Source: Gemmatimonadales bacterium
Lineage (GTDB): Bacteria; Gemmatimonadota; Gemmatimonadetes; Gemmatimonadales; GWC2-71-9
Reading direction: 5' to 3'
Length of the DNA: 64,000 bases
NCBI GenBank assembly: GCA_036265815.1
Contig: DATAOI010000058.1
Coordinates: 1 to 64,000, forward strand
A program made the translations under genes and the position numbers. The first letter of the stretch is position 1. Each line of letters opens with the position of its first letter. The notes beneath the pieces are model-generated. The model ran no database searches, was not told the origin of the DNA, and saw nothing but the letters and a program-made list of their open reading frames with translations. Of this stretch, positions 9,335-43,224 are shown piece after piece.

Positions 9335-9490
9335 GGCGGCGGTAAGGGCGGCGGTAAGGGCGGCGGTAAGGGCGGCGGTAAGGGCGGTAAAGGCGGTAAA
9401 GGCGGTAAAGGCGGTAAAGGCGCGAGAACCCAGACCCTCGTTTCCGCATGACCAGACCTTACTGCCCTTACCGCCCTTACCGCCGTACCG
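9335..9490. repeat. tandem repeat island (4 x 12-mer, 4 x 9-mer) with inverted partner
   Basis: Positions 9335-9382 are four perfect copies of the 12-mer GGCGGCGGTAAG. Positions 9383-9418 are four perfect copies of the 9-mer GGCGGTAAA. After about 45 nt an inverted, slightly degenerate copy follows (9464-9490, units of CTTACCGCC), so the RNA or single strand can fold into a long hairpin. The island lies between the lipid kinase and the CMD-like gene and has relatives at 12307-12399, 25704-25830 and at the left edge of the window (1-16). Confidence 0.9.
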
Positions 9491-9540
9491 CCCGGCTCGC
9501 GTTAGATTGCGAACTCCCCCTGCTCGACGGAGCCCCAGGC

Positions 9541-25703: not shown

Positions 25704-25830
25704 GGCGGTAAGGGCGGTAAGGGCGGTAAGGGCGGTAATGACGGTAAGGACGGTAAGGACTGGGAAGCCAGGAAGGAAGCCAAGTCCTGAACCTACGAGC
25801 CTTCCCGCCCTTGCCGCCCTTACCGTCCCG
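25704..25830. repeat. GGCGGTAAG tandem repeat with inverted partner in a divergent promoter region
   Basis: Six 9-mers of the GGCGGTAAG family run from 25704 to 25757 (three perfect, then GGCGGTAAT and two GACGGTAAG). An inverted degenerate copy follows at about 25801-25830. The island lies between the starts of two divergent genes (25700 minus, 25858 plus), so unlike the other islands it cannot be simply a terminator for its neighbours. Confidence 0.88.
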
Positions 25831-29185: not shown

Positions 29186-29533
29186 TCAGCGGGGCCGCCC
29201 ACCCCGGGTGAGGCGGTCCACTTCGGATTCGCTCATCTTGTCCGCATCGAGGTCATGCTGGCCGGTGACCCGGTGCCAGGCATCCTTCACCGCATCCTTC
29301 ACGTTCTCCCACGTGCTGCCACCGGCGGGCTTGCCGGTGAACTTGTCCCAGCCGGTCCGGAGGTCGGGCTCGACCTCGTTCCAGGTGCGCCCCATGTGAT
29401 GTGCGCCCGACTCGTACCCATACCGGTAAGCCGGCTGAAACTCTTCATACTTACGACCGGCTGCGTAGGGTCGAGAGGTGAAGTTGTTCCGCCACCATCT
29501 ATCCTCTTCGTTCCAGCTATCGATATTGGCCAT
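29186..29533 (-). CDS. small hydrophilic stress-type protein, unknown function
   Basis: 115 residues, rich in Trp, Tyr, Asp and Arg. The pattern 'NEEDRWWRNNFTSRPYA...YRYGYESG' followed by 'WENVKDAVKDAWHRVTGQ' recalls a widespread group of small proteins in stress-tolerant bacteria, often annotated only as hypothetical. The C-terminal amphipathic helix is like those in CsbD or YtxH-type stress proteins. I chose the ATG at 29533 because GGAGGAA lies just before it; an ATG at 29545 overlaps this site. It probably has its own promoter. Function unknown. Confidence 0.75.
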   Translation of the reverse strand: MANIDSWNEEDRWWRNNFTSRPYAAGRKYEEFQPAYRYGYESGAHHMGRTWNEVEPDLRTGWDKFTGKPAGGSTWENVKDAVKDAWHRVTGQHDLDADKMSESEVDRLTRGGRPR

Positions 29534-29628
29534 CGTTTCCTCCATGACTGAAGATTTCGGTCCAGCGAGGCCTATGTTACGGCGCCGGTGCTGTGGCCGA
29601 CGTGAGCGACCTCACTGCGATCCCGGAG

Positions 29629-30801: not shown

Positions 30802-32229
30802 TCACGGCTTTGCGGGTGGTGGTTCCTGGGACGCCAGGGCACGCACCAGGGCACTCATATAGTCCAGGCCGGCGTAGAACGCCTCGACCCGGATCCGCTC
30901 GTCTCTCCCGTGGGCACGGATGTCGTCCACGTCGAGCGGTACGCCGGACACGCCGTACACCGGGATGCCGGCATTCCTGAGATAAAGACCGTCGGTGGCG
31001 CCCGTCTCCATGCTCGGCACGACCGCGGCGCCAGGCCAGATGCTGGCGGTCAGGCGCTCGATCGGCTGCAGCACCTCCGGCGTGAGCGGGGAGGGCGGGG
31101 AAGGCACAGGCTCCTGCGCCACCGTGAGGGTCACCGCCGTGTCTGCCAGGACACCGCGCAACGCGGCCAGCACATCCTCCTTCCGCTCATCGGGAAGCAT
31201 GCGGCAGTTGACCACCGCACTCGCCGTCTGGGGCAGGGCGTTGTTGGCGTGCCCTCCTTCCAGTCGGGTGGCGACGCACGTGGTGCGGAGCTGGGCATTG
31301 AAGAAGGGAGAGGCCTGGGACTGCCGCCGCATCGCGGCGGTATCGCCGGCCGCCACCAGGCCCATGTCCTTGGTGACTTCCGGCGAGTCGGCGGCGGCAG
31401 CGGCCCGCTCGAAGTACGCTCGGGTCACCTGGTTGAGCCGGGCCGGGAACTGGAATGCGGCCAGATGGGTGAGCGCCGCGGCCAGCCGGTAGATCGCATT
31501 GTCGGCCACCGGAAGCGAGCTGTGTCCCCCGGGGTTATGGACCTCGAGCCGGAGATCCATGTACACCTTTTCGCTGGCCTGCACGTCGCGGGCGTACGGC
31601 TTCCCCGCATGGGAGAGGGGATCGCCACCATCCCCGTTGATGCAGTACACCACATCGATCAGGTCGCGCCGGTGGGCCAGCAGCCATTGCACGCCGTTGT
31701 CGTCTCCGCCTTCCTCGCCGGCGGTCAGGGCTAGAATGATGTCGCGGTCCGGAGCGAAGCCTTCCCGCTTCATCCGGAGCAGCGTCTCCACGAAGATGGC
31801 GCCCATGTCCTTGATGTCGCTGGTACCCCGGCCGTAGAAGAAGCCGTCCTTCTCGGTCAGGGTGAACGGATCCACCGTCCAGTCCGCCCGCCGGGCCTCC
31901 ACCACATCCAGATGGGCCAGCAGCAGGATGGGCTTCCGGACGCGGGTTCCCCGGAGCCGGGCCACCACATTCATTCGTGCCGGGTTGGGCCCCACCACCT
32001 GAACGTCGCGTGCCGGGAATCCAGCACCCCGGAGCCAGCGTGCCACCGCCTGTGCGGCCGGGGTCGTGGCACCATGCTCGTCGGTGCTGTTGATGCCGAT
32101 CAACTCGGCGAAGATGGCCCGAGCCTCGATCTGGTCGGGACGGCGGGACTGCGCGTTCAGAACCCGGGGTGCCCCCAGGAGCACGAGCGTGCAGGCGAGC
32201 GCGCGGGCGAAGCGGGTCAAGGAATCCAT
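30802..32229 (-). CDS. secreted M20 family metallopeptidase
   Basis: 475 residues. A signal peptide (about 1-26, ending 'LNAQ') precedes the peptidase. Zinc-site residues are visible in 'ILLLAHLDVVEA' (HxD), 'GRGTSDIKDMG' (Asp), 'LTAGEEGGDDNG' (catalytic and metal Glu) and 'INGDGGDP'. The lid domain contains 'HNPGGHSSLP'. The enzyme is a di-zinc exopeptidase or amidase acting on peptides or acylated amino acids outside the cytoplasm. The start is the ATG at 32229; the frame is open to 32460, but the extension is not protein-like. Upstream, 293 nt separate it from the divergent coiled-coil gene. Confidence 0.92.
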   Translation of the reverse strand: MDSLTRFARALACTLVLLGAPRVLNAQSRRPDQIEARAIFAELIGINSTDEHGATTPAAQAVARWLRGAGFPARDVQVVGPNPARMNVVARLRGTRVRKPILLLAHLDVVEARRADWTVDPFTLTEKDGFFYGRGTSDIKDMGAIFVETLLRMKREGFAPDRDIILALTAGEEGGDDNGVQWLLAHRRDLIDVVYCINGDGGDPLSHAGKPYARDVQASEKVYMDLRLEVHNPGGHSSLPVADNAIYRLAAALTHLAAFQFPARLNQVTRAYFERAAAAADSPEVTKDMGLVAAGDTAAMRRQSQASPFFNAQLRTTCVATRLEGGHANNALPQTASAVVNCRMLPDERKEDVLAALRGVLADTAVTLTVAQEPVPSPPSPLTPEVLQPIERLTASIWPGAAVVPSMETGATDGLYLRNAGIPVYGVSGVPLDVDDIRAHGRDERIRVEAFYAGLDYMSALVRALASQEPPPAKP

Positions 32230-32522
32230 CCTCGGCGAAGTGAAGGGTGCGTCGCGGAATCTAGCGCGGCCACCGCGCCCCGCGACATGCGAGAAGACGG
32301 GCAGCTCGCAATCGGAAGCGTGCGCCATGCGGGCGGGCCCGAAACAGCGATGCCCTGCACCACTCGGCCATCCGTCGTGCCGGTAATGGTTTGCATAGCG
32401 CTGACGATTGCGGTGTCGGGTGCACTGCCCAGGCAAATCCCTCGGGCATATCCGTTGCACTCAGGTCGCCGGTCCGCCCCCGTCAAATCACTACGCCACC
32501 CGCTAAAAATTCCGGAGTCTAC

Positions 32523-35156
32523 ATGGTCACCTTCCTCAAGGGTCGCCGCCGCACGGATGACTCGGTCGTCGCCGTCGACGAAAGCGGAACGAACATCTCC
32601 GCCAAGCTCGAGGCGCTGGTCGCGCGTGCCGAGGCCGCCGCCGAGCAGCTCCGTTCGCTCGCCCCCATCATGGAGCGATCCGCCGAGCTGGACACCTTGA
32701 GAGAGCGCTGTGTCGCTGTCGAGCGCCAGGTCGAAGGAATCGAGCGGCTCGGGGCTCAGCTCGCGGCCGCCGAGGAGCGGGCCGAGCGGGTGGCCAAGAC
32801 CCAGGAGCGGACCGAGACCCAGATGGCCCACGCCGGCGAGGACGTGGAGCGGATCCAGAGTCACATGGGGGAGTTGGGCCACAAGGTCGACATGGCTCTC
32901 GTGCTGCGGGAGGAGGTCGACAAGTTCCTGAGCCTCCAGGGCCCGATCGCCGGCCTCCGGAGCGACGCGGACAGCCTCCGGGCCCAGGTAGTGGAGATGG
33001 CCGAAGGGGTCGGCCGGATCCGGGCACAGCACGATGACGCGCTCACCGCCCACCGCCACACCACCTCGCGGCTCGAGGCGATCGACCAGGAGCACCAGGC
33101 CTCCACCAGCCGGCTGGAAGAGGCGTCGCGCCGGCTGCAGGCGATCGAGCGCACCCTCGATCCGCTGACCCAGGCCACCGAGTCGATTCCCGCCATTCAG
33201 CACCAGCTCGCCGTGCTCAAGTCGCTGGCCGACCATGTGGGACAGAAGACCACGGCCCTGGAGCAGCAGCGGGAGGCGGTGGACCGTGCGGCCAACCAGA
33301 TCTCCAAGCTCACCGTGCTCGACCGTGAGCTCGACACCTGGCTGCGTCGTCAGGAGGAGCAGGTCCGGCGGTTCGCGGGCGTTGAGGCCAAGATCGCCGA
33401 GGTCCAGGCGCTGCACGGCAAAGTGATGTCCCGCACCGACGAGCTGCAGAGCGCGCAGCAGCAGGCCGAGGAGGCCCAGCAGGGCGCCCGCCAGGCGCTG
33501 GCCGATCTGCGCGAGCAGATGCGCAAGAGCAGCGAAGGCTTCGAGCTGGAGAATCGGGGCCTGCACGCGGTGAGCGAGCGCGTGGCCGACCTGCGCAGCG
33601 CGGTGAAGGAGTGTGAGACCCGCTTCGGGGTGCTCGATGCCGCCAGCCAGGGCACTGCGGCCGTGACGGCCCAGGTCCGGAGCGTCACCGAGCTGACCAC
33701 CGAGCTGTCCCGGGAGCTGGCGCGGATGTCGGAGGAGGCTGGACGGCTGGGCATCCTGCGAGAGCATGCTGAGCGGCTCGAGGCCGTGGCCGCCGAGACC
33801 ACCGGCCGGATGCAGCGTCTGCAGGAGATGAAGCCCGAGCTGGACGACGCCGTGCAGAAGCTCGTCGCGCTCAAGGGAACCCACGAGATGATGTCCGATG
33901 GGCTGGAGCAGATGCGGATGGCCCTGGGCGAGATGGGCCGGCTGCGCGAGGGGCACGCAGAGATGCAGGTATGGCTGGGCAACACCGAGACCTGGACCCG
34001 CAAGGTCCAGGCGCAAGTGAAGGAGCTGAGCGGGATGGAGCCGGCGGTCGAGCGGATGCGCGGCGACGTGGAGCAGGTCAAGGCTGCGATGAGCGAGATC
34101 GAGTCGCGTGGCACCAAGGTGGACGAGATGCACCGCCGCCTGGGCGATCTCGGCGCCTTGAGCGCGGAGCTCAAGGAGCGGACCGAGAGTTTGCGCGAGC
34201 GGATGGACGGCGCGGAAGGACGGTTCAGCCAGCTCGCCGGGCAGTCGATGGAGGCGGAACGGGTGTCCCAGACGATCGCCGGTGTGGTCGAGTCGGTGGG
34301 CGGGGCCGAGCAGCGCATCGGCGCGGTGGACGAGTCGGTCCGCGCCCTGGAAGGCCGGACCAAACAGCTCGACGAGCTGGAGGAGCGCATCCGGATTCTA
34401 GGCCAGGAGCTGGAGCAGCGGCAGGGCGCGCTGGACAAGGCCACCGAGCACCTGACCCGCGCCTCCGCGCTGCGGCAGGAGTCGGCCGAGACCGCGCAGC
34501 GACTGGAGGAGGTCTCCCGCAAGATCGGGAAGCAGCTGGCCACCGCGCAGGACCGGGCCGGCGGGTTGGAGCGCGTCTCCGGCGAGCTGGAGGCGCGGGC
34601 CACCGCGCTCAAGACGATCGAGAAGCAGCTCACCGAATTCGAGGCGCTGCTCGCCACCTGGGACTCGGCGCAGACCGAGGCGGCGCGGTCGCTGGACCAG
34701 ACCCTCGCGCGGCAGGGCGCCGTCGAGGCCCTCGGTGCCGAAGTGAAGCACGTCTTCGAGCTGGCCGAGCGGGCGGTGGAGAACGTGCAGACCATCGGCG
34801 CGGCGCGGCGGGAGATCGAGGAGACCCATACGCTGCTGCAGGAGACCCACGCACAGCTTCGCGCCGCGGAAGACGCGCTGCACGACTTCGAGGCGCGGAA
34901 GCGCCAGCTCGAGCGCACCGAGCAGCGGCTGGCCCGGGCGGAGGCGCTGGCGATGGAGGTCCGCTCCTCGGTCGAGTCGCTCCAGGCCCAGCGTGCGGTG
35001 GTGGAGCACGTGATCGAGCGGTCCGGCGCCCTCACCTTCCAGATGAAGCAGGCCGAGGCGCTGGTCGAGACGCTCCGGCGGGAGCGGACCCTCGCCTGCG
35101 ATGTGAGCGCGGCCGTGGCGGCGGCCCGGGACGAAGAGGAGGAAACCGGCCGCTAG
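32523..35156 (+). CDS. 877-residue coiled-coil protein, unknown function
   Basis: Apart from about 25 N-terminal and 15 C-terminal residues, the protein is one long heptad-like sequence rich in Glu, Arg, Ala, Gln and Leu. It has almost no Pro or aromatic residues, no membrane helix, no signal peptide and no ATPase motif (so not SMC or Rad50). The N-terminus is short and basic (MVTFLKGRRRTDD). If one rod, it could span on the order of 100 nm. Repeating blocks such as 'LDELEERI', 'LEAVAAETTGRM' and 'EQRIGAVDESV' resemble methyl-accepting or filament proteins, without a known domain. The start is set by GGAG 7 nt before the ATG at 32523. Possible roles are cytoskeletal filament or scaffold; this is inference. 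Confidence 0.88.
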   Translation: MVTFLKGRRRTDDSVVAVDESGTNISAKLEALVARAEAAAEQLRSLAPIMERSAELDTLRERCVAVERQVEGIERLGAQLAAAEERAERVAKTQERTETQMAHAGEDVERIQSHMGELGHKVDMALVLREEVDKFLSLQGPIAGLRSDADSLRAQVVEMAEGVGRIRAQHDDALTAHRHTTSRLEAIDQEHQASTSRLEEASRRLQAIERTLDPLTQATESIPAIQHQLAVLKSLADHVGQKTTALEQQREAVDRAANQISKLTVLDRELDTWLRRQEEQVRRFAGVEAKIAEVQALHGKVMSRTDELQSAQQQAEEAQQGARQALADLREQMRKSSEGFELENRGLHAVSERVADLRSAVKECETRFGVLDAASQGTAAVTAQVRSVTELTTELSRELARMSEEAGRLGILREHAERLEAVAAETTGRMQRLQEMKPELDDAVQKLVALKGTHEMMSDGLEQMRMALGEMGRLREGHAEMQVWLGNTETWTRKVQAQVKELSGMEPAVERMRGDVEQVKAAMSEIESRGTKVDEMHRRLGDLGALSAELKERTESLRERMDGAEGRFSQLAGQSMEAERVSQTIAGVVESVGGAEQRIGAVDESVRALEGRTKQLDELEERIRILGQELEQRQGALDKATEHLTRASALRQESAETAQRLEEVSRKIGKQLATAQDRAGGLERVSGELEARATALKTIEKQLTEFEALLATWDSAQTEAARSLDQTLARQGAVEALGAEVKHVFELAERAVENVQTIGAARREIEETHTLLQETHAQLRAAEDALHDFEARKRQLERTEQRLARAEALAMEVRSSVESLQAQRAVVEHVIERSGALTFQMKQAEALVETLRRERTLACDVSAAVAAARDEEEETGR

Positions 35157-35181: not shown

Positions 35182-37287
35182 TCAGTGGATGCCGCGCGGC
35201 AGCGTCTCGTTCCACGATCTGCTGCGGATCAGTCGATCCCGCTCGAAGAGCCGCCGGGTGACGGTCACCTGCAGATCGGTCTCGTCCGAGCGAATCTCCA
35301 TGATGGTGTGGAGCCGCAGGGTTCGTCCACCGGCAAAGGTGAACCGGTGGACCTCATCTCCCAGGAAGCTGCTCCGCGCCGGGCTCTCGTCCTCCGTCTG
35401 GTAGTGCTCCCGCTCGATGGTCTGAACGATCCGCGCACCGATCATATAGTCCCACCGGGTCTCGAAATCCACCATCGTCGTCCCGGTGCTCGTGTCCCGA
35501 GTCACCCTGCCCGCGGGCGTCGCGTGGAAGCTCAGGGTGCGCGCATCGGGGGCCTCCGCGTCCGGCCCGGCCCGGGGCTGCCGCGCGGGTGGCCGGTGGG
35601 GGTGAGCCACAGGAGGCGTGACCGGGAGCTCGAGCACCGTGCCCGGGGCGCCGAGGGTGAGCCGCGTGGTCATCGGGGAGGGGGTGGGCCATGCCATGGG
35701 AAACTGGGCGTTCGCCACCGCCATCCGAACCCGGTGGCCAGGCCTGAAGATCCAGGTAGTGAAGTGCAGATCGGCCGCGAGCTGGTACTCGACGCCCGGC
35801 GCCAGCGGAGTGGGAGAAGTGCGGGAGTCCCGCTGGGCACCGCTGATGAGCGCGCCGGTCACCAGCGAGGCTCGTCCGTCGGGACCGACGTCCTCCAGCC
35901 GAACCGTCCAGTCGGCCACCGGCACCGGTGCCGAGACCAGGAGCCGGACTCGGGGAAAGCCCACGATCTCGACAGTGTGGCGGAGGGCCGGCGTGTCGTA
36001 CATCAGGCTGTTGCGGTCGTCCCTGGCCATGTCGCCGGTGGGATCGTTCCACCAGACGGGCGCGGCGGTCCCGGTGCCCGCCACATAGCGCAGCTGGTCG
36101 TCGCCGCTGGCGCGGCTGGCGGAATCCGGTTGGCGAGTCAGGCGGTGGTCCGACGCCGGATACCAGGCGCGCCAACGGGTCCGCGCGATCGGCCAGTCCT
36201 CGTAGCGCCACCGCCCCGGAGTGGTCGCCAGCGCCGCGTTCGGGGAGTGCCCGTCGCGCACGAACAGGGTGAGCCGGGGCTCGTCCATGATCCCGTTCTC
36301 CGCCCCGCGTAGCCAGTGGTTCCACCAGCGCACCGCCTGCTCTCGCCACTCGTAGCGGGGTCCGGGGGAGGCGTTGTGGGGAAAGTCGTGCTTCCAGGGC
36401 CCCATCAGTGCCTTGACCGGCGCCCGCACGCTGTCCAGCATCCGCAGCACCGCATCGCGGTATCCGTCGAGCTGGCCCCCGATCAGGAAGCAAGGGACGG
36501 CGATCGCGCCGTAGTGGAACCGCAGCGACTTCCGACGCCACCACTCGTCGTCGATCGGGTGCTTGAGATAGGTGAGGATCCAGGGATCGCGGTCGAACCG
36601 GTCGTGGAAGTAGACCGAGTCGGTCCGATACTCCGGCGGGGCAGGCAGGCCGTTCTCGTGGTCGATTTCCAGCGCGTACTGGTCGACGTGCAGCACGCCG
36701 TCGATGTAGTGGATGTCGTCGTGGTAGAGATCGTCGGTGGCAGCGATCGCGAGGATCGCCTTGAGCGCGGGCGGCCGCCGCATCGCCACCTGAATGGAGT
36801 TGAACCCGCCCCAGGAGATGCCCCACATCCCCACCCGGCCGTTGCTCTCCGGCATCCGCGCCAGCTGCGCGATGATCTCGTCCGCGTCTCTCATCTCTTC
36901 GTCGGAGTACTCCCGGGGCGGCAGGGTTCCCTCCGACGCGCCGGTCCCTCGCACGTCGACCGCCGCCAGGATGAAGCCCCGCTGCACGAACCAGCGATAG
37001 ATCGGGAAGTCACGCTGGTAAAACGAATCGTCCTTGCGGTAGGGGAGATACTCCAGCAACACGGGGAACCGCTCGCCGGTCTGCCGCGGGATCGGACGCC
37101 AGTAGGTCACGGCTAGGCGCACGCCGTCCGGCATCTGGAGCCGGCCGTGCTCGGTGTGGAACTGATAGAGCGCGGTGTCCTTCGGCGCTGGCGGCCGCTG
37201 TCCGGCGGCGCTGGACGCTGCGAGACAGGATATCAGGCCAACCGCCGCTACCCAGGCTCTCCCGGTCGTGCCGAGTCGGCCCGTCAC
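35182..37287 (-). CDS. secreted CocE/NonD-type serine hydrolase
   Basis: 701 residues. A signal peptide (about 1-29, ending 'SAAGQ') is followed by an alpha/beta-hydrolase domain with the nucleophile elbow 'GMWGISWGGFNS' (Ser in GxSxGG). The Asp in 'IGGQLDGYRD' and His in 'GPWKHDFPHN' could complete the triad. The C-terminal jelly-roll ('FRPGHRVRMAVANAQFP') is typical of the X-Pro dipeptidyl-peptidase/cocaine-esterase group. The substrate is an ester or a peptide. It begins with GTG overlapping the stop of the outer-membrane channel gene (GTGA), making it the last gene of the RND operon. This is an unusual partner for an efflux pump. Confidence 0.92.
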   Translation of the reverse strand: MTGRLGTTGRAWVAAVGLISCLAASSAAGQRPPAPKDTALYQFHTEHGRLQMPDGVRLAVTYWRPIPRQTGERFPVLLEYLPYRKDDSFYQRDFPIYRWFVQRGFILAAVDVRGTGASEGTLPPREYSDEEMRDADEIIAQLARMPESNGRVGMWGISWGGFNSIQVAMRRPPALKAILAIAATDDLYHDDIHYIDGVLHVDQYALEIDHENGLPAPPEYRTDSVYFHDRFDRDPWILTYLKHPIDDEWWRRKSLRFHYGAIAVPCFLIGGQLDGYRDAVLRMLDSVRAPVKALMGPWKHDFPHNASPGPRYEWREQAVRWWNHWLRGAENGIMDEPRLTLFVRDGHSPNAALATTPGRWRYEDWPIARTRWRAWYPASDHRLTRQPDSASRASGDDQLRYVAGTGTAAPVWWNDPTGDMARDDRNSLMYDTPALRHTVEIVGFPRVRLLVSAPVPVADWTVRLEDVGPDGRASLVTGALISGAQRDSRTSPTPLAPGVEYQLAADLHFTTWIFRPGHRVRMAVANAQFPMAWPTPSPMTTRLTLGAPGTVLELPVTPPVAHPHRPPARQPRAGPDAEAPDARTLSFHATPAGRVTRDTSTGTTMVDFETRWDYMIGARIVQTIEREHYQTEDESPARSSFLGDEVHRFTFAGGRTLRLHTIMEIRSDETDLQVTVTRRLFERDRLIRSRSWNETLPRGIH

Positions 37288-38774
37288 CGGGCTGGGGTCC
37301 AGCTCCCGCCGACGGCGCGATAGAGCTGCACTGCCGCTTCCAGCTCCTGGAGCCGGGCCTGGCTCAAGGCCAGCTCCGCGTCGAACAGGCTGCGTTGCGC
37401 GTCGAGCACTTCCACGTAGCCGGCCACGCCGCTGGTGTAGCGTCGCTCGGCCAGCTCCAGGGCTCGCCGGAGCGCCTGCGCCTGGGTCTGCTGCGCGGTG
37501 GTGACATCGCGTGCCGTCCGCACGCCGACCAGCGCGTCGCCCGCTTCGCCCAGAGCGACGAGCACGGTCTGCTCGTATTGCGCCCGCGCCTGCTCCGCGC
37601 GCGCACGGGCGGCCTCCGCCTGGCTGGAGAGAAAGCCTCCGGTGAAGATCGGTATCGAGACGCCGCCGAGCAGCTGGTAGATCTCTCGGCTGGAGTCGAA
37701 CAAGTTCGAGGTGCTGCTGGCCTGAGTGCCGTACGAGCCGGTGATGGAGAAGGTCGGCAGCCGGGCTGCCTGGGCCGCCCCGATGCGCGCGGTGGCGGCG
37801 GCGAAGGCGCGCTCCGCCTGCTGCACGTCGGGGCGGCGCGCCACCAGCGCCGCGGGGATGGAATCGGGCACCGTCAGCGAGCGCACCGCCTCCATCAGCG
37901 ACCCGCCTCGGGGCACCGGCCTCGGCTCGTCGCCCAGCAGCACGTTGAGCTGATGCTCGCGCTGGGTCCGGTCCCGCTCCGCCGCGACCAGCGCCGACGC
38001 GGCCACCGCGACCTGTGCCTCGAACTGGCGCACGTCCAGCTCCGAGATGACCCCTTGCTCGAACCGCCGCTGCGCCAGCTTGAGCACGGCCTGCCGATCG
38101 GCCAGCGTGTGGCCGGCGATCGCCCGCTCCTCGTCGAGCTGCAGCAGCTGCAGGTAGCCGGTCGCGACGTCGCTCACCAGCGTCAGGAGCACCGCGCGCT
38201 GCCCCGCCTCCTCGGCCGCGAGGTCGGCGTGCGCCGCCTGCAGGCCACGCCGGATCCGGCCCCAGAAGTCGAGCTCCCAGGCGAGATCGCCGGTCACCCG
38301 GAGGGCATCGAAGCGCGTGGGAGGGAACGACCCGAACACCGACTGGTTGGTGCTGGCGCTGCCGTTGACGGTGACGGAGGGGAACAGCGGCGACCGGGCG
38401 ACGCCCACCAGCGCGCGGAACTCCCGGATCCGTGCCACCGCTGCCTGTACCTCACGATTCTGCCGCACGGCGGTCTCGACCAGGCGCACCAGCGTGGAGT
38501 CGCGGAAGAGATCCAGCCACGCGGCTCCCGCGGTGGTATCGGACGGCAGCTGGAGCGGGGCCGGTGCCACAGTGCCGCTCGCGCCACTGTCCGCGGAGCG
38601 GGCGGCGGCGAGCGAGTCGAAGAAGCGCCGCGCCGTGCTGTCGGACCCGGCACCGCCCACGCGCGAGGCCGCCGGCACCGGCGCCGTGGGTCGATAGCTC
38701 GGGCCGACGGCGCAGGCGCCGAGCAGCAACGGCAGAGCCACCCGCACCACATGGTGCGCCGTCGGGCGGCTCAC
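37284..38774 (-). CDS. RND efflux outer-membrane channel (OprM/NodT type)
   Basis: 496 residues. Lipobox LLGAC (Cys21) and 'AVGPSYRPTAP' after it are the family's N-terminal signature. Two repeats of the TolC-like helical barrel follow, with 'GDLAWELDFWGRIRRGLQAA' in the first and 'VARRPDVQQAERAFAAATARIGAAQAARLPTFSI' in the second. It forms the trimeric channel across the outer membrane for the pump encoded upstream. The start is a GTG that overlaps the stop of the RND gene by GTGA; its own stop overlaps the hydrolase gene in the same way. A low-complexity insert (about 35-65) near the N-terminus is unusual but minor. Confidence 0.93.
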   Translation of the reverse strand: MSRPTAHHVVRVALPLLLGACAVGPSYRPTAPVPAASRVGGAGSDSTARRFFDSLAAARSADSGASGTVAPAPLQLPSDTTAGAAWLDLFRDSTLVRLVETAVRQNREVQAAVARIREFRALVGVARSPLFPSVTVNGSASTNQSVFGSFPPTRFDALRVTGDLAWELDFWGRIRRGLQAAHADLAAEEAGQRAVLLTLVSDVATGYLQLLQLDEERAIAGHTLADRQAVLKLAQRRFEQGVISELDVRQFEAQVAVAASALVAAERDRTQREHQLNVLLGDEPRPVPRGGSLMEAVRSLTVPDSIPAALVARRPDVQQAERAFAAATARIGAAQAARLPTFSITGSYGTQASSTSNLFDSSREIYQLLGGVSIPIFTGGFLSSQAEAARARAEQARAQYEQTVLVALGEAGDALVGVRTARDVTTAQQTQAQALRRALELAERRYTSGVAGYVEVLDAQRSLFDAELALSQARLQELEAAVQLYRAVGGSWTPAR

Positions 38775-41700
38775 CGGTGCTGCTCCGTGGCCACCGCCCC
38801 GGCCGGCGCCGCCGTGCGGCTGCCACCGATCCGCTCCGCGAGGCCGCGGAACAAGGTGAAGAAGAGCGGGATGAAGAAGATGCCGATGCTGGTGGCGAAG
38901 AGCATCCCAGCGAAAACGGCGGTGCCCAGCGAGTGCCGGCTGGCGGCCCCCGCGCCGCCCGCCACCACCAGCGGCGAGACGCCGAAGATGAAGGCGAACG
39001 AGGTCATGAGGATCGGCCGCAAACGCTCGCGGGCGGCCTCCGCCGCCGCCTCCCGGATCGAGCCGCCCTGGCGGTTGCGGATCGAGTTGGCGAACTCCAC
39101 GATCAGGATGGCGTTCTTTGCCGCCAGCCCGACGACGGTGATGAGCCCGACCTGAAAATAGATGTCGCTCGGGGTGCCCCGGAGCCAGACCCCCAGCAGC
39201 GCGCCCAGGGCGCCGAACGGCACGCCGAGCAGGACGGCGAACGGCACGGTCCAGCTCTCGTACTGGGCCGCCAGCACCAGGAACACGATGACGAGACCCA
39301 GACCGAACACCAGGCCGGCTTGGCCGGTGGCCGCCCGCTCCTGGTATGACTGGCCCGAGTAGCCGATGCCGATCCCCTGGCCGGCGAACTCCCGCGCCAC
39401 CAGGTCGTCCAGCTCGTTCAGCACCTCGCCGGAGCTCCGCCCCGGCTTGGGCGTGCCGGTGATCAGCGAGGAGCCGAATCCGTTGAACCGGAGCATCTGG
39501 GTCGGTCCACTGCGGAACTCGATCCGGGTGAGCGCCGAGACCGGCACCATCTCGCCGTTGCCCCCCCGCACGTAGAGCCGGCCGATGTCCTCCGGCCGCT
39601 GGCGGAACGGCGCCTGCGCCTCGGCCTGCACCCGGTAGGTCCGGCCATAGAGGTTGAAGTCGTTGATGTAGAGCGTCGAGAGCAGCGTCTGCAAAGTGCC
39701 GAACAGGTCGGTCAGGCTCACTCCGCGCGCCTTGGCGGCCGCGCGGTCCACATCCACGTACACCTGCGGCACGTTGGCCCGGAAGTTGGTGTTGAGGGCC
39801 TGCACCGCCGGTAGCTTGTTGGCCTCCGCCACGAACGCCTGGACCTGCTGGGCGAAGTCCCGGACGTCCTTACCGACCCGGTTCTGCAGGTTGGCCTCGA
39901 TCCCCGAGGTGGCGCCGAGGCCGGGGATCTCGGGGAGGTTGAAGGCAAAGCCGACCGCCTCCTTGAGCCCGAAGAGCTTGGCGTTGATCCGCCCGGTGAT
40001 CGCGTCGATCGACTGGTCCTTGTTCCGCTCCTCCCACGGCTTGAGCAGAATGAAGATCGTCGCGCTGTTCGTCTGGTTGGTACGGGTGAGCACGTCGAGC
40101 CCGGCGAACGCGACGTAGTTTAGGACGGCGGGCTCCTGCCGCAGAAAGCCTTCGATCTGCTGAACCACGCGCTTGGTCCGTTGCAGCGACGAGGCATCGG
40201 GGAGCTGCATCGCGATGGCGAAATAGCCCTTGTCCTCGGTCGGGATGAACGCGGTGGGCACCCGGCGCCAGAGCAGGACCGCCAGCCCCACCAGAACCAC
40301 GAACGCCGCGAGCCAGGTCCGCGGCCGGCCCAGCACCCGCTCCACCAGCCCGCCATAATGCTCGATGGTCCGGTGGAAGCCCCGATTGAAGGCGCCGAAG
40401 AATCCCGTCGTGTTGGCCTCGTTGGATTCCCGGAGCAGGGAGGCGCAGAGCGCGGGCGTCAGCGTGAGCGCCACCATCCCGGAGAGCAGGACCGAGATCA
40501 CGATGGTGACGGCGAACTGGCTGAACATCCGCCCGGTCACCCCGCCCAGGAACGCCACTGGCACGAAGACCGCGCAGAGCACCAGCACGATCGCGATCAG
40601 CGCGCCCGCCACCTGGCGGATGGCGCGGTCCGCGGCGACCCGGGCGGACACGCCTTCGCTCGCCATGATCCGCTCGGCGTTCTCGATCACCACGATGGCA
40701 TCATCCACCACGATGCCGATGGCGAGCACCAGGCCGAACAGCGTCAGCACGTTGATGGTGAAGCCCAGCAGCAGCAGGCCCAAAAAGGTGCCGATCACGG
40801 CCACCGGCACGGCGAGCATCGGGATCAGCGTGGCCCGCCAGCTCTGCATGAAGAGGAAGACCACCAGTGTCACCAGCAGCAGCGCTTCCAGCAGCGTCTT
40901 CACCACCTCGTGAATCGAGGCGGTGACGAACGGCGTCGTATCGAAGGGGATCTTGTAGCGCACGCCCGGCGGGAAGCTGCGGGCCAGCTCGTCCATCCGC
41001 TTGACCACCGCCTCCTTCGCCGCCAGGGCGTTGGCGCCCGGGCGCAGGTAGAGCAGCAGCGGCGAGGTGGGGGCCCCGTTGAGCCGGCCGGCGAGATCGT
41101 AATTGCGCGATCCCAGCACCACCCGGCCGATGTCCCGCACCCGGATGAGGGAGCCGTCGGGCTTGGCCCGCACCACGATGTCCGCGAACTGGTCCGTGGT
41201 TTTGAGTCGGCCCAGCGTGGTGACCGGGAGGGTGAACTCGACGTCGGGTGGCGCCGGCTCCCGGCCCACCCGGCCCGCCGGATTGGTGGTGTTCTGCTCC
41301 CGCACCGCCGCGGCGACCTCGGAGGTGGTGACCCCGAGCTGTGCCATCCGGTCGGGATCGAGCTGGATCAGCATCGAAAACTCGAGCCCGCCGAAGGTGA
41401 GCGCGTTCCCGATCCCGGGCACGCGCTTCATCTCGTCTTCGACGTAAAGCTTCAGATAGTTCGTCAGGTACGCCGCGTCGTAGCGGGGATCGGCCGAAGT
41501 GAGCGCCACCACGCCCAGGATATCGGTGTTCGCCTTGAGGATGGTGATGCCGTTCTGGCGCACGGCGTCGGGCAGCTGCGGCTGGGCGAGCTGCACGGCG
41601 TTCTGCACGTCCACGGCGGCCAGATCCTGGCTGCGATCGACGTCGAAGAAGATCTGCAGGCTCATCGACCCGTCGCTCGCGTTGGCCGACGAGTAGTAGA

Positions 41701-41971
41701 GCAACCCTTGTAATCCCGAAAGCTGCTGCTCGATCGGCGCCGCCACCGCCTCCGCCACGTCCTCGGCCGTGGCGCCGGGATACACGGTTTGCACCTGGAT
41801 CGCGGGCGGCGTGATCTGCGGGTACCGCGAGATCGGCAGCAGCCGGATGGCGAAGACGCCGAGCAGGGTCACGATGATGGAGATGACTGCCGCCAACACC
41901 GGGCGCCGGATGAAGAAGTAGTGGACCTCTTCGGCGCCATCCGGCGCCGGCGCGGAGGGCGCCGGGTTCAC
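38771..41971 (-). CDS. RND multidrug efflux permease (HAE1/AcrB type)
   Basis: 1066 residues, the normal size, with 12 membrane helices and two large periplasmic loops. TM4 contains 'GIVVDDAIVVIENAER' with the two proton-relay Asp residues. 'PPAIQVQTVYPGATAEDVAEAVAAPIEQQLSG' and 'VDVQNAVQLAQPQLP' are standard HAE1 sequences. It pumps hydrophobic compounds from the periplasm and inner leaflet using the proton gradient. The N-terminus is extended by about 15 Ala/Pro residues before 'FFIRRPVLA'. The GTG start overlaps the adaptor gene stop by four bases, so synthesis of the two is coupled. Confidence 0.95.
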   Translation of the reverse strand: MNPAPSAPAPDGAEEVHYFFIRRPVLAAVISIIVTLLGVFAIRLLPISRYPQITPPAIQVQTVYPGATAEDVAEAVAAPIEQQLSGLQGLLYYSSANASDGSMSLQIFFDVDRSQDLAAVDVQNAVQLAQPQLPDAVRQNGITILKANTDILGVVALTSADPRYDAAYLTNYLKLYVEDEMKRVPGIGNALTFGGLEFSMLIQLDPDRMAQLGVTTSEVAAAVREQNTTNPAGRVGREPAPPDVEFTLPVTTLGRLKTTDQFADIVVRAKPDGSLIRVRDIGRVVLGSRNYDLAGRLNGAPTSPLLLYLRPGANALAAKEAVVKRMDELARSFPPGVRYKIPFDTTPFVTASIHEVVKTLLEALLLVTLVVFLFMQSWRATLIPMLAVPVAVIGTFLGLLLLGFTINVLTLFGLVLAIGIVVDDAIVVIENAERIMASEGVSARVAADRAIRQVAGALIAIVLVLCAVFVPVAFLGGVTGRMFSQFAVTIVISVLLSGMVALTLTPALCASLLRESNEANTTGFFGAFNRGFHRTIEHYGGLVERVLGRPRTWLAAFVVLVGLAVLLWRRVPTAFIPTEDKGYFAIAMQLPDASSLQRTKRVVQQIEGFLRQEPAVLNYVAFAGLDVLTRTNQTNSATIFILLKPWEERNKDQSIDAITGRINAKLFGLKEAVGFAFNLPEIPGLGATSGIEANLQNRVGKDVRDFAQQVQAFVAEANKLPAVQALNTNFRANVPQVYVDVDRAAAKARGVSLTDLFGTLQTLLSTLYINDFNLYGRTYRVQAEAQAPFRQRPEDIGRLYVRGGNGEMVPVSALTRIEFRSGPTQMLRFNGFGSSLITGTPKPGRSSGEVLNELDDLVAREFAGQGIGIGYSGQSYQERAATGQAGLVFGLGLVIVFLVLAAQYESWTVPFAVLLGVPFGALGALLGVWLRGTPSDIYFQVGLITVVGLAAKNAILIVEFANSIRNRQGGSIREAAAEAARERLRPILMTSFAFIFGVSPLVVAGGAGAASRHSLGTAVFAGMLFATSIGIFFIPLFFTLFRGLAERIGGSRTAAPAGAVATEQHR

Positions 41972-43116
41972 TGCTTCGCTCCCGGGGTGGCCGCCCGGGC
42001 GGCGCCGGCGGAGGCGGCCTCCGAGGTGGCCGCGCTGTCGACCGCGGGTACCGGACGCACCCGGCCGCCCGGCGCCGCCTTCTGCGCGCCGTCCACCACC
42101 ACCCGGTCTCCGCTGGCCAGACCCTTCTCGATGATCCAGCGGCTGCCGCTCCAGGGTCCGGGCTGTACGTCGCGCGAGACCACGGTATCACCCTGGCCCA
42201 CCACGTACACGAACTGGCGGCCGAGCGCCTGCTGGACGGCGCGCTGGGGCACCGCGATCGCGCTGTCGCGGACGAATCCGCTCAGCCGCACCCGCACGAA
42301 CTGACCGGGCAGCAGCACCCTGTCCGGATTCCGGAACTCGGCCCGGAACTCCTGGGTGCCGGTGGTGGCGTCGAGCGATGGCGCCACGAAGTTGAGCCGC
42401 CCGCTGCGAGGGAGGAGCGTGCCGTCGGGCAGCGTCACCTCCACCCGGAGCCGGCTGCCAGGCTGGACCAGGGCGCGGCCCCGCGGGTTCTCCTGCCAGG
42501 CCAGCAGCTGCTGGGCCGAGGGACGAAACACCACGTACGCCGGGTCGAGCACGTCGATGGTGGTGAGCAGATCGTCGGTTCCGGTGACCCGCCCACCGCG
42601 GTCGAACAGCGCGCGGCCCACCCGGCCATCGATCTCGGCCCGGATGACGCTATCGTCCAGATCCTTCTTGGCATCCTCCAGCGCGCCTTCGGCCGATTCG
42701 AATTCGGCCCGCGCGTTGTCGACGTCCTGTTGCGCGATGGCCCGGTCCGCCAGCAGCGGCTCCAGCCGGTCGAGCGTCCGCTTGGCATTGTTGCGGCGGG
42801 CCAGCGCGCTCCGATACGCCGCCTCCGGCCGCACCCGCTCGAGCCGGTAGAGCACCTGCCCGCGCCGAACCGTCGCGCCCTCCGTGAACACCCGTGCCTC
42901 GATGATGCCCTCGATCCGGCTGCGGACCTCCACCCGGCGATACGGCACCACCTCCGCGGAGAACTCGTACGTCTCCGGTACCTCTTCCGGCTTGACCGTC
43001 ACCACCGCCACTTCAGGCGGCGGCGGTGCCTTGGGCGGGGCCTTGGACTGGCAGCCCGCCAGCAGCACGACCGCACCCGCGGCACGGATCAACCCGAACC
43101 TGTCGACCTGGGCCAC
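41968..43116 (-). CDS. RND periplasmic adaptor (membrane fusion protein)
   Basis: 382 residues. Lipobox VLLAGC (Cys22) anchors it to the inner membrane. Biotinyl-lipoyl-like halves flank a helical hairpin: 'VRSRIEGIIEARVFTEGATVRRGQVLYRLE' and 'VIRAEIDGRVGRALFDRGGRVTG'. The beta-barrel and membrane-proximal domains follow, and a Ser/Ala-rich tail ends the protein. The adaptor joins the permease to the outer-membrane channel. I chose the GTG at 43116 because a GAGGAGGG site precedes it and the lipoprotein signal then has normal length; an ATG at 43173 would make it too long. It is the first gene of the efflux operon. Confidence 0.92.
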   Translation of the reverse strand: MAQVDRFGLIRAAGAVVLLAGCQSKAPPKAPPPPEVAVVTVKPEEVPETYEFSAEVVPYRRVEVRSRIEGIIEARVFTEGATVRRGQVLYRLERVRPEAAYRSALARRNNAKRTLDRLEPLLADRAIAQQDVDNARAEFESAEGALEDAKKDLDDSVIRAEIDGRVGRALFDRGGRVTGTDDLLTTIDVLDPAYVVFRPSAQQLLAWQENPRGRALVQPGSRLRVEVTLPDGTLLPRSGRLNFVAPSLDATTGTQEFRAEFRNPDRVLLPGQFVRVRLSGFVRDSAIAVPQRAVQQALGRQFVYVVGQGDTVVSRDVQPGPWSGSRWIIEKGLASGDRVVVDGAQKAAPGGRVRPVPAVDSAATSEAASAGAARAATPGAKQ

Positions 43117-43224
43117 ACGCCCTCCTCTGCTCGCCGGCCCGCACGCTGCCCTATCAGAGGGTGTGCAGGTCACTCTGGCGACGTAACACCGTAGCAGGGA
43201 TGTGGCGCAAGGGGCCGCTGATGC

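Follow-up and report, generated by a model that had tools for sequence, protein, structure and literature searches.

The window, as the whole stretch of 64,000 nucleotides analysed here is called, carries a single-gene unit encoding a long coiled-coil rod, hereafter the coil protein (Table 1). Its frame was picked as coding by a simple GC-position gene finder. The assigned start is supported by the GGAG upstream and by the opening residues, which close relatives share: MV[TS]FLKGRR begins 7/7 other rows of the same genus in alignment A1. The flanking M20 peptidase and S15-type hydrolase genes both face the opposite way, so the coil gene stands alone, and a consensus scan found no promoter- or terminator-like sites for it. 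Comparison of 24 stretches revealed no gene neighbour conserved beyond close relatives, and therefore no partner for the coil protein is suggested.

Several other features of the window are recorded here as separate observations. A 119-amino-acid small protein (...DSWNEEDRWWRNNFTSRPYA..., 29186-29545, minus strand) has no Pfam match; it is encoded close to the coil gene both here and in loci L026, L029 and L048, which are close relatives only. An RND efflux set (37284-43173, minus strand) consists of an outer membrane efflux protein and an AcrB-type pump, both identified by Pfam, followed by a third gene. Short tandem repeats of the GGCGGTAAG/GGCGGTAAA type occupy two separate sites (9335-9493 and 25704-25758).

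Table 1. Features of the coil gene and its surroundings (window coordinates).
Feature	Position	Strand	Basis
M20-family peptidase, divergent neighbour, outside the system	30802..32460	-	Pfam PF01546, 1.9e-29
GGAG, probable ribosome-binding site, 5 bases upstream of ATG	32514..32517	+	Read from sequence
Coil gene, 877-residue coiled-coil rod protein, single-gene unit	32523..35156	+	ORF (ATG at 32523, stop codon ending at 35156); gene finder; both neighbours on other strand
Residues 1-12, MVTFLKGRRRTD, proposed membrane-targeting peptide	32523..32558	+	Aromatic, acid-free N-terminal statistic; membrane binding inferred
Rod, residues 26-870, hydrophobic period 3.4575	32598..35132	+	Fourier scans; mostly helix in low-confidence model
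Conserved C-terminal segment, residues 785-858, ending in FQxKQAEALIxxLRxER motif	34875..35096	+	Column information, profile A2
S15-type hydrolase, convergent neighbour, outside the system	35182..37287	-	Pfam PF02129, 1.5e-51

Composition and predicted fold

The coil protein contains 6 prolines and 14 aromatic residues (10 F, 4 W, 0 Y) among its 877, in agreement with the near absence of both described in the initial annotation, and has a net charge of -37. The family profile has a sharp coiled-coil peak at 3.46 with a Fourier power of 123, where 300 shuffles reach at most 10.1; with the open reading frame and the coding signal, this upholds the earlier description of a real long coiled-coil protein. 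Walker A or LSGG motifs and TM-like stretches were each found in 0/32 family members, consistent with the stated lack of any ATPase, membrane or signal part. The structure prediction that had been proposed as a check, run with AlphaFold2 on the 32-row alignment, returned helix only, at low confidence (mean pLDDT 64.5; pTM 0.24). The model supports an all-helical fold class but not the arrangement of the helices. Breaks in the modelled helix near residues 134-141, 238-244, 376-419, 574-597 and 751-759 may be hinges and, with the low confidence of the model, were counted against the rod reading preferred below. A search of solved structures gave five weak matches, the best at 0.0035.

Sub-threshold matches to Rad50, SMC and the PADLOC JetC, LmuB and DruC models suggest, as another reading, an arm of the SMC, Rad50 or defence (JetC/LmuB) type that lacks its ATPase heads. 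This is very unlikely. Apart from the missing ATPase motifs in every member, the scores fall far under the cut-offs (65.5 versus 567.35 for SMC, 79.8 versus 700 for Rad50), these NCBIfam models also respond to scrambled decoys, and the genome encodes its own SMC elsewhere (G000:C22:9036-12482, 862 bits, above cut-off), whose hydrophobic peak lies at 3.505. The earlier exclusion of SMC thus holds, as does that of MukB, from which the protein differs in its absent ATPase motifs and its period. PADLOC and PHROGs gave generic coiled-coil matches only.

A hydrophobic repeat shorter than the heptad

The hydrophobic stripe of the rod has a period of 3.4575 residues rather than 3.50 and stays in phase over ~845 residues. 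In the query alone the Fourier power is 94.9 at 3.4575 and 0.7 at 3.50. All 32 members, each scanned on its own residues, peak at 3.455-3.470 (power 57-116), including those of 630, 712, 994 and 1066 residues, while the power across the 32 rows is 0.4-6.3 at 3.50 and 0.0-1.7 at 11/3 (3.667). Followed through 38 overlapping windows, the local phase varies from -84 to +30 degrees at 3.4575, whereas it circles round at 3.50. An acidic stripe of the same period lies 160 degrees from the hydrophobic one. The sequence shows a helical chain that bears, along the whole of this length, an in-phase hydrophobic stripe with an acidic face on the other side.

The period amounts to heptads with one extra three-residue step every ~41 residues. 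A core-step parse of the profile gave 133 three-residue and 110 four-residue steps, with 28 stammers and 6 stutters, from a parser biased to three-residue steps (shuffled profiles give a mean step of 3.482). This bias, together with the off-3.5 peaks of E. coli SbcC and MukB pieces, which are weak and scattered (3.4425 and 3.48, powers 7.9 and 9.1), speaks for the reading that the protein is an ordinary heptad coiled coil of no special geometry and its period an artefact of the analysis. The Fourier scan, however, is independent of the parser, and the peak below 3.5 is repeated in 32/32 rows, so that an artefact is scarcely credible.

Control proteins peak elsewhere, the genome's own SMC as given above and tropomyosin at 3.500. 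When all 345 proteins predicted from the fetched DNA were ranked by 300-residue periodicity, the top 69 entries (38-55) all belonged to the family, some genes being counted more than once in overlapping loci; the 70th (26.5) was a family fragment and the next scored 22.4. No comparable sub-heptad rod was found by title or abstract in the open literature, in which few subscription papers are covered. According to the available text of PMC4786415, the vast majority of known non-heptad coils lie above 3.5 and stammers strain the helix. The rarity of a 3.46 period is judged on few controls (own SMC, MukB, SbcC, tropomyosin and the fetched-DNA proteins) and this one paper.

The three-residue shifts are more evenly spaced than chance (P about 0.0005). 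Their placement holds the phase with a coherence of 0.764; two null models give 0.49 (P 0.0004) and 0.53 (P 0.0007). Several of the larger indels between members fall near whole turns (97, 149 and 235 residues, or 28.05, 43.09 and 67.97 turns), and others do not (11 residues, 3.18 turns; 179 residues, 51.77 turns). The regular placement of the breaks argues that the twist of the whole rod is itself selected, as would be expected with side-by-side packing or with binding sites on one face. No charge period supporting lateral packing was found, the strongest besides 3.46 being 9.14, whose power of 8.7 equals the 95% level of shuffles (8.7). If a free helix is taken to have 3.63 residues per turn (available text of PMC4786415 and PMC9858780), the 3.4575 period gives a supercoil turn of about 73 residues or 108 A, where heptads would give 98 residues or 145 A, and the rod is about 125 nm long.

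Conserved ends

The N-terminal sequence varies, yet within a common theme (MATFLKSLRG, MAAWNIFGR, MSWKSLFG, MMASLLKSFFRG and similar). An F or W lies inside residues 2-10 in 32/32 members, residues 2-8 are free of D and E in 29/32 (an acidic residue occurs there in 3/32), and residues 2-10 are net positive in 26/32; as the rows are related, these counts express conservation rather than 32 independent cases. An aromatic in residues 2-10 together with no D or E in residues 2-8 was found in 20 of 166 neighbour proteins, used as controls lacking a hydrophobic N-terminal stretch.

The initial annotation had suggested that a basic 12-residue N-terminus could bind membrane or nucleic acid. The basic character stands (residues 1-12 net +3), and binding to membrane may hold, although the members without a net positive charge in residues 2-10 and the 3 with an acidic residue in 2-8 count against it. 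The nucleic-acid half of the suggestion, a nucleoid or nucleic-acid binding rod whose N-terminus touches DNA or RNA, has the same positive charge in its favour and a precedent in a spirochaete coiled-coil protein (Scc) that reportedly binds nucleic acid, for which a literature search returned no paper. It is nevertheless improbable, given the stronger conservation of the aromatic, the overall acidity of the protein and the absence of any nucleic-acid binding domain from its Pfam and NCBIfam matches. A membrane-binding end instead has a described parallel in the N-terminal peptide of bactofilin BacA, MFSKQAKS, in which M1, F2, K4 and K7 are needed (available text of PMC12448750). The features of that peptide, an aromatic at the extreme N-terminus with K or R nearby, recur in the coil family at the frequencies given above, and by analogy the coil N-terminus may likewise sit at the membrane.

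Conservation along the protein peaks at residues 241-260, 701-720 and 801-860. Mean column information is 2.59-2.70 bits at 801-860 and 2.88 at 241-260, both among the highest of the protein. The C-terminal consensus reads RKRQxExAExRLARAEALxxxVRSxxExLxxQKAVVDxVxExAGALxFQxKQAEALIxxLRxER.

Family and distribution

The protein had been described as an orphan with no close family. The remote-homology search against Gemmatimonadota that was proposed alongside this description returned, on the contrary, a conserved, patchy family, with relatives in 36/298 sampled genomes of the phylum and 18/119 genera. Among the genome itself and 60 relatives, 20/61 gave matches. A profile built from the last 105 residues found 34/298 genomes in the phylum sample, gaining G074 (a fragment) over the full-protein search and losing G006, G274 and G295, and 39/102 in the family to which the window belongs (f1). 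Family members are separated from everything else by a clear gap, fragments and partial matches aside. Genome G006 was scored as coil-bearing although its sole copy is truncated where the contig ends. Four relatives have named records, as bins of Gemmatimonadales and Gemmatimonadaceae. The relatives' genes were called with a simple script, and the exact starts of distant members are uncertain.

Copy number is mostly one per genome; G014 has two, and G284 has a second, longer copy adjoining the first. This second member (L065, 12012-16412, minus strand) has 1466 residues and a hydrophobic peak also at 3.46. In three lineages a small protein that appears GroES-like from its sequence adjoins the coil gene or gene pair, with differing orientation (L054, 7843-8238; L059, 7212-7592; L065, 16873-17271).

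In a gene tree of 32 rows, f1 is split into several groups, and members from f2 lie beside the group of the window. This pattern reflects old duplication, loss or transfer, among which the tree alone cannot tell. The coil frame is real, coding and under purifying selection, with dN/dS of 0.12-0.41 in 13 of 14 pairs and 0.74 in the fourteenth, which joins two short, distant members at a dS of about 1. Phage and plasmid records gave no match in a protein search at E 1e-3, and plasmids gave six weak matches from other organisms at E 10. Viral contigs searched with the family alignment yielded 96 pattern stretches and 0 relatives.

Absence from flagellin-bearing genomes

Flagellin_N was found in 83/298 genomes of the phylum sample and in 14/102 of the family sample (12 above cut-off). 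Coil and flagellin occur together in 0/36 coil bearers of the phylum sample and 0/39 of the family sample, and in the phylum sample no genus is on both lists. The two phylum lists derive from separate searches of 298 genomes each, whose genome handles agree, and flagella were judged by flagellin alone. The chance of zero overlap is 3e-6 (phylum) and 6e-4 (family sample) with genomes taken as independent, and 0.001 with genera taken as independent. In the family sample, genus g52 has both kinds in different genomes (coil in G284, flagellin in G321), and g20 is also mixed (coil in G028, a sub-cut-off flagellin match in G325).

An RpoB tree was built from 66 of 80 genomes picked for coil, flagellin or neither; of the 14 left out, 13 lacked a match and G007 had a fragment only. 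In this tree the coil-bearing genomes of f2 and f5 are placed amid those with flagellin, and G179 adjoins G222. Independent pairs changed in opposite directions in about 4/8 cases and never in the same direction. A tree-based sign test on the starred branches was not significant (p 0.0625-0.5; p 0.125-1 once the two flagellin calls below cut-off are dropped). In a trait simulation (65 rows, long G061 pruned), absence of overlap arose in 0/4000 runs in each direction, a result that is optimistic because the RpoB subset under-samples genomes with neither trait and is thereby biased to exclusion. The mutual absence of coil and flagellin is thus a lead that the tree leaves unsettled.

For comparison, MreB is present in 101/102 and bactofilin in 94/102 genomes of the family sample. 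Both occur nearly everywhere, and therefore the coil protein does not replace them; co-occurrence this close to universal is otherwise uninformative.

Matches to the SpiroCoCo model

The best NCBIfam match of the query is SpiroCoCo_C (NF047515), at 118.5 bits against a curated cut-off of 125. The model matches 32/32 members, and the best E-value, 2.9e-45, implies that at least one member lies above the cut-off. Decoys were made from residues 400-720 by within-phase scrambling, three for each period, and the comparison is accordingly indicative rather than exact. The native piece scores 58.3 bits, the scrambles that keep the 3.4575 period score 38.0, 28.6 and 51.1, and those with a 3.5 period score 19.0 and 13.2, with one giving no listed match. 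Since the former keep half to most of the score and the latter lose most of it, the match appears to be largely one of periodicity, to which the specific sequence may add little. For one 3.4575 decoy the alignment to the profile covers 232 positions on each side; a nearly equal period is probable for SpiroCoCo itself, across ~230 columns of its profile.

The coil protein could still be a member of the SpiroCoCo family of spirochaete coiled-coil proteins, and would then properly take its name. The breadth of the matches would fit this, as would the equal lengths aligned at residues 456-676 (221 and 221). Set against these are the sub-cut-off score of the query, the scores of the period-only scrambles and the sub-cut-off matches of the model in 8/14 control genomes, and we regard membership as unlikely. 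The indications are of a likeness of build rather than of membership. No paper on the SpiroCoCo name was found in an open-library literature search. More generally, a curated coiled-coil family model may attract other proteins by periodicity alone, and SpiroCoCo_C, with its matches in control genomes and to decoys of the right period, may over-annotate long coiled coils.

Proposed role

The coil protein belongs to a real, conserved and uncharacterised family, a bacterial structural coiled coil that is notable for its geometry and not for being alone. The initial annotation missed three points, namely the 3.4575 period, shorter than that of heptads, the conservation of the C-terminal segment and the lack of the coil in genomes with flagellin. 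The reading that we prefer, with a probability of roughly 0.5, is that of a cytoplasmic structural rod, overwound, tied to the membrane by its N-terminus and acting as a scaffold or tether through its C-terminus. Chains would pair, most simply as a parallel dimer, into a left-handed coil ~125 nm long, with a supercoil some 25% tighter than that of heptads. The aromatic and basic N-terminus would anchor one end of the rod to the cytoplasmic side of the membrane, in the way that the M-F-x-K peptide does for bactofilin, and the conserved C-terminal 75-100 residues would bind a partner or the next rod. The rod may thereby serve as a membrane-tied scaffold or spacer, like bacterial cytoskeletal coiled coils, in lineages that lack flagellin. 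Filament or scaffold formation, also put forward in the initial annotation, is part of this inference.

A rod of ~845 residues held at 3.4575 in all relatives examined would test the limits and the mechanical gain of left-handed overwinding. The protein also offers a specific scaffold candidate in a phylum whose cell biology has been little explored, and its absence from flagellin-bearing genomes is a testable feature. A broader proposal, more speculative and on balance unlikely, is that of a hidden class of bacterial coiled coils with an overwound, phase-locked 3.46 repeat over 600-1000 residues, present in at least two phyla. In Gemmatimonadota such a protein would form a cytoskeletal rod that is tied to the membrane and either cannot coexist with flagella or takes on a role where they are absent. 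The extension to at least two phyla, joining the Gemmatimonadota family to the spirochaete SpiroCoCo, follows from the fit of period-only decoys to the SpiroCoCo profile.

Comparison with known systems

Long helical arms are common to the coil protein and to SMC, Rad50 and MukB, from which it differs in its lack of ATPase motifs and its period. Crescentin and intermediate-filament-like proteins have a plan of head, long rod and tail, and the coil protein is alike in plan to these coiled-coil-rich proteins as they are generally described; none of their families is among its Pfam or NCBIfam matches. SpiroCoCo (NF047515/NF047514) is likewise a coiled coil whose profile fits a 3.4575 period over ~230 columns, compared here through the profile alone; the query, however, scores below its cut-off and is from a different phylum, judging by the SpiroCoCo name.

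FilP, Scy and DivIVA resemble the coil protein as long cytoplasmic coils with a regular non-heptad repeat (available text of PMC9858780). FilP and Scy have hendecads, with a period above 3.5, and an RGYDxxEVD motif. The coil period, in contrast, is below 3.5, with next to no power at 3.667 in 32/32 rows, and [RK]GYD, used to look for the N-terminal RGYDxxEVD motif of DivIVA, FilP and Scy, occurs in 0/32 members. From bactofilins the coil protein differs in having no PF04519 domain among Pfam matches to E 1, and the genome has its own bactofilin elsewhere; the likeness lies in the short N-terminus with aromatic and basic residues (available text of PMC12448750).
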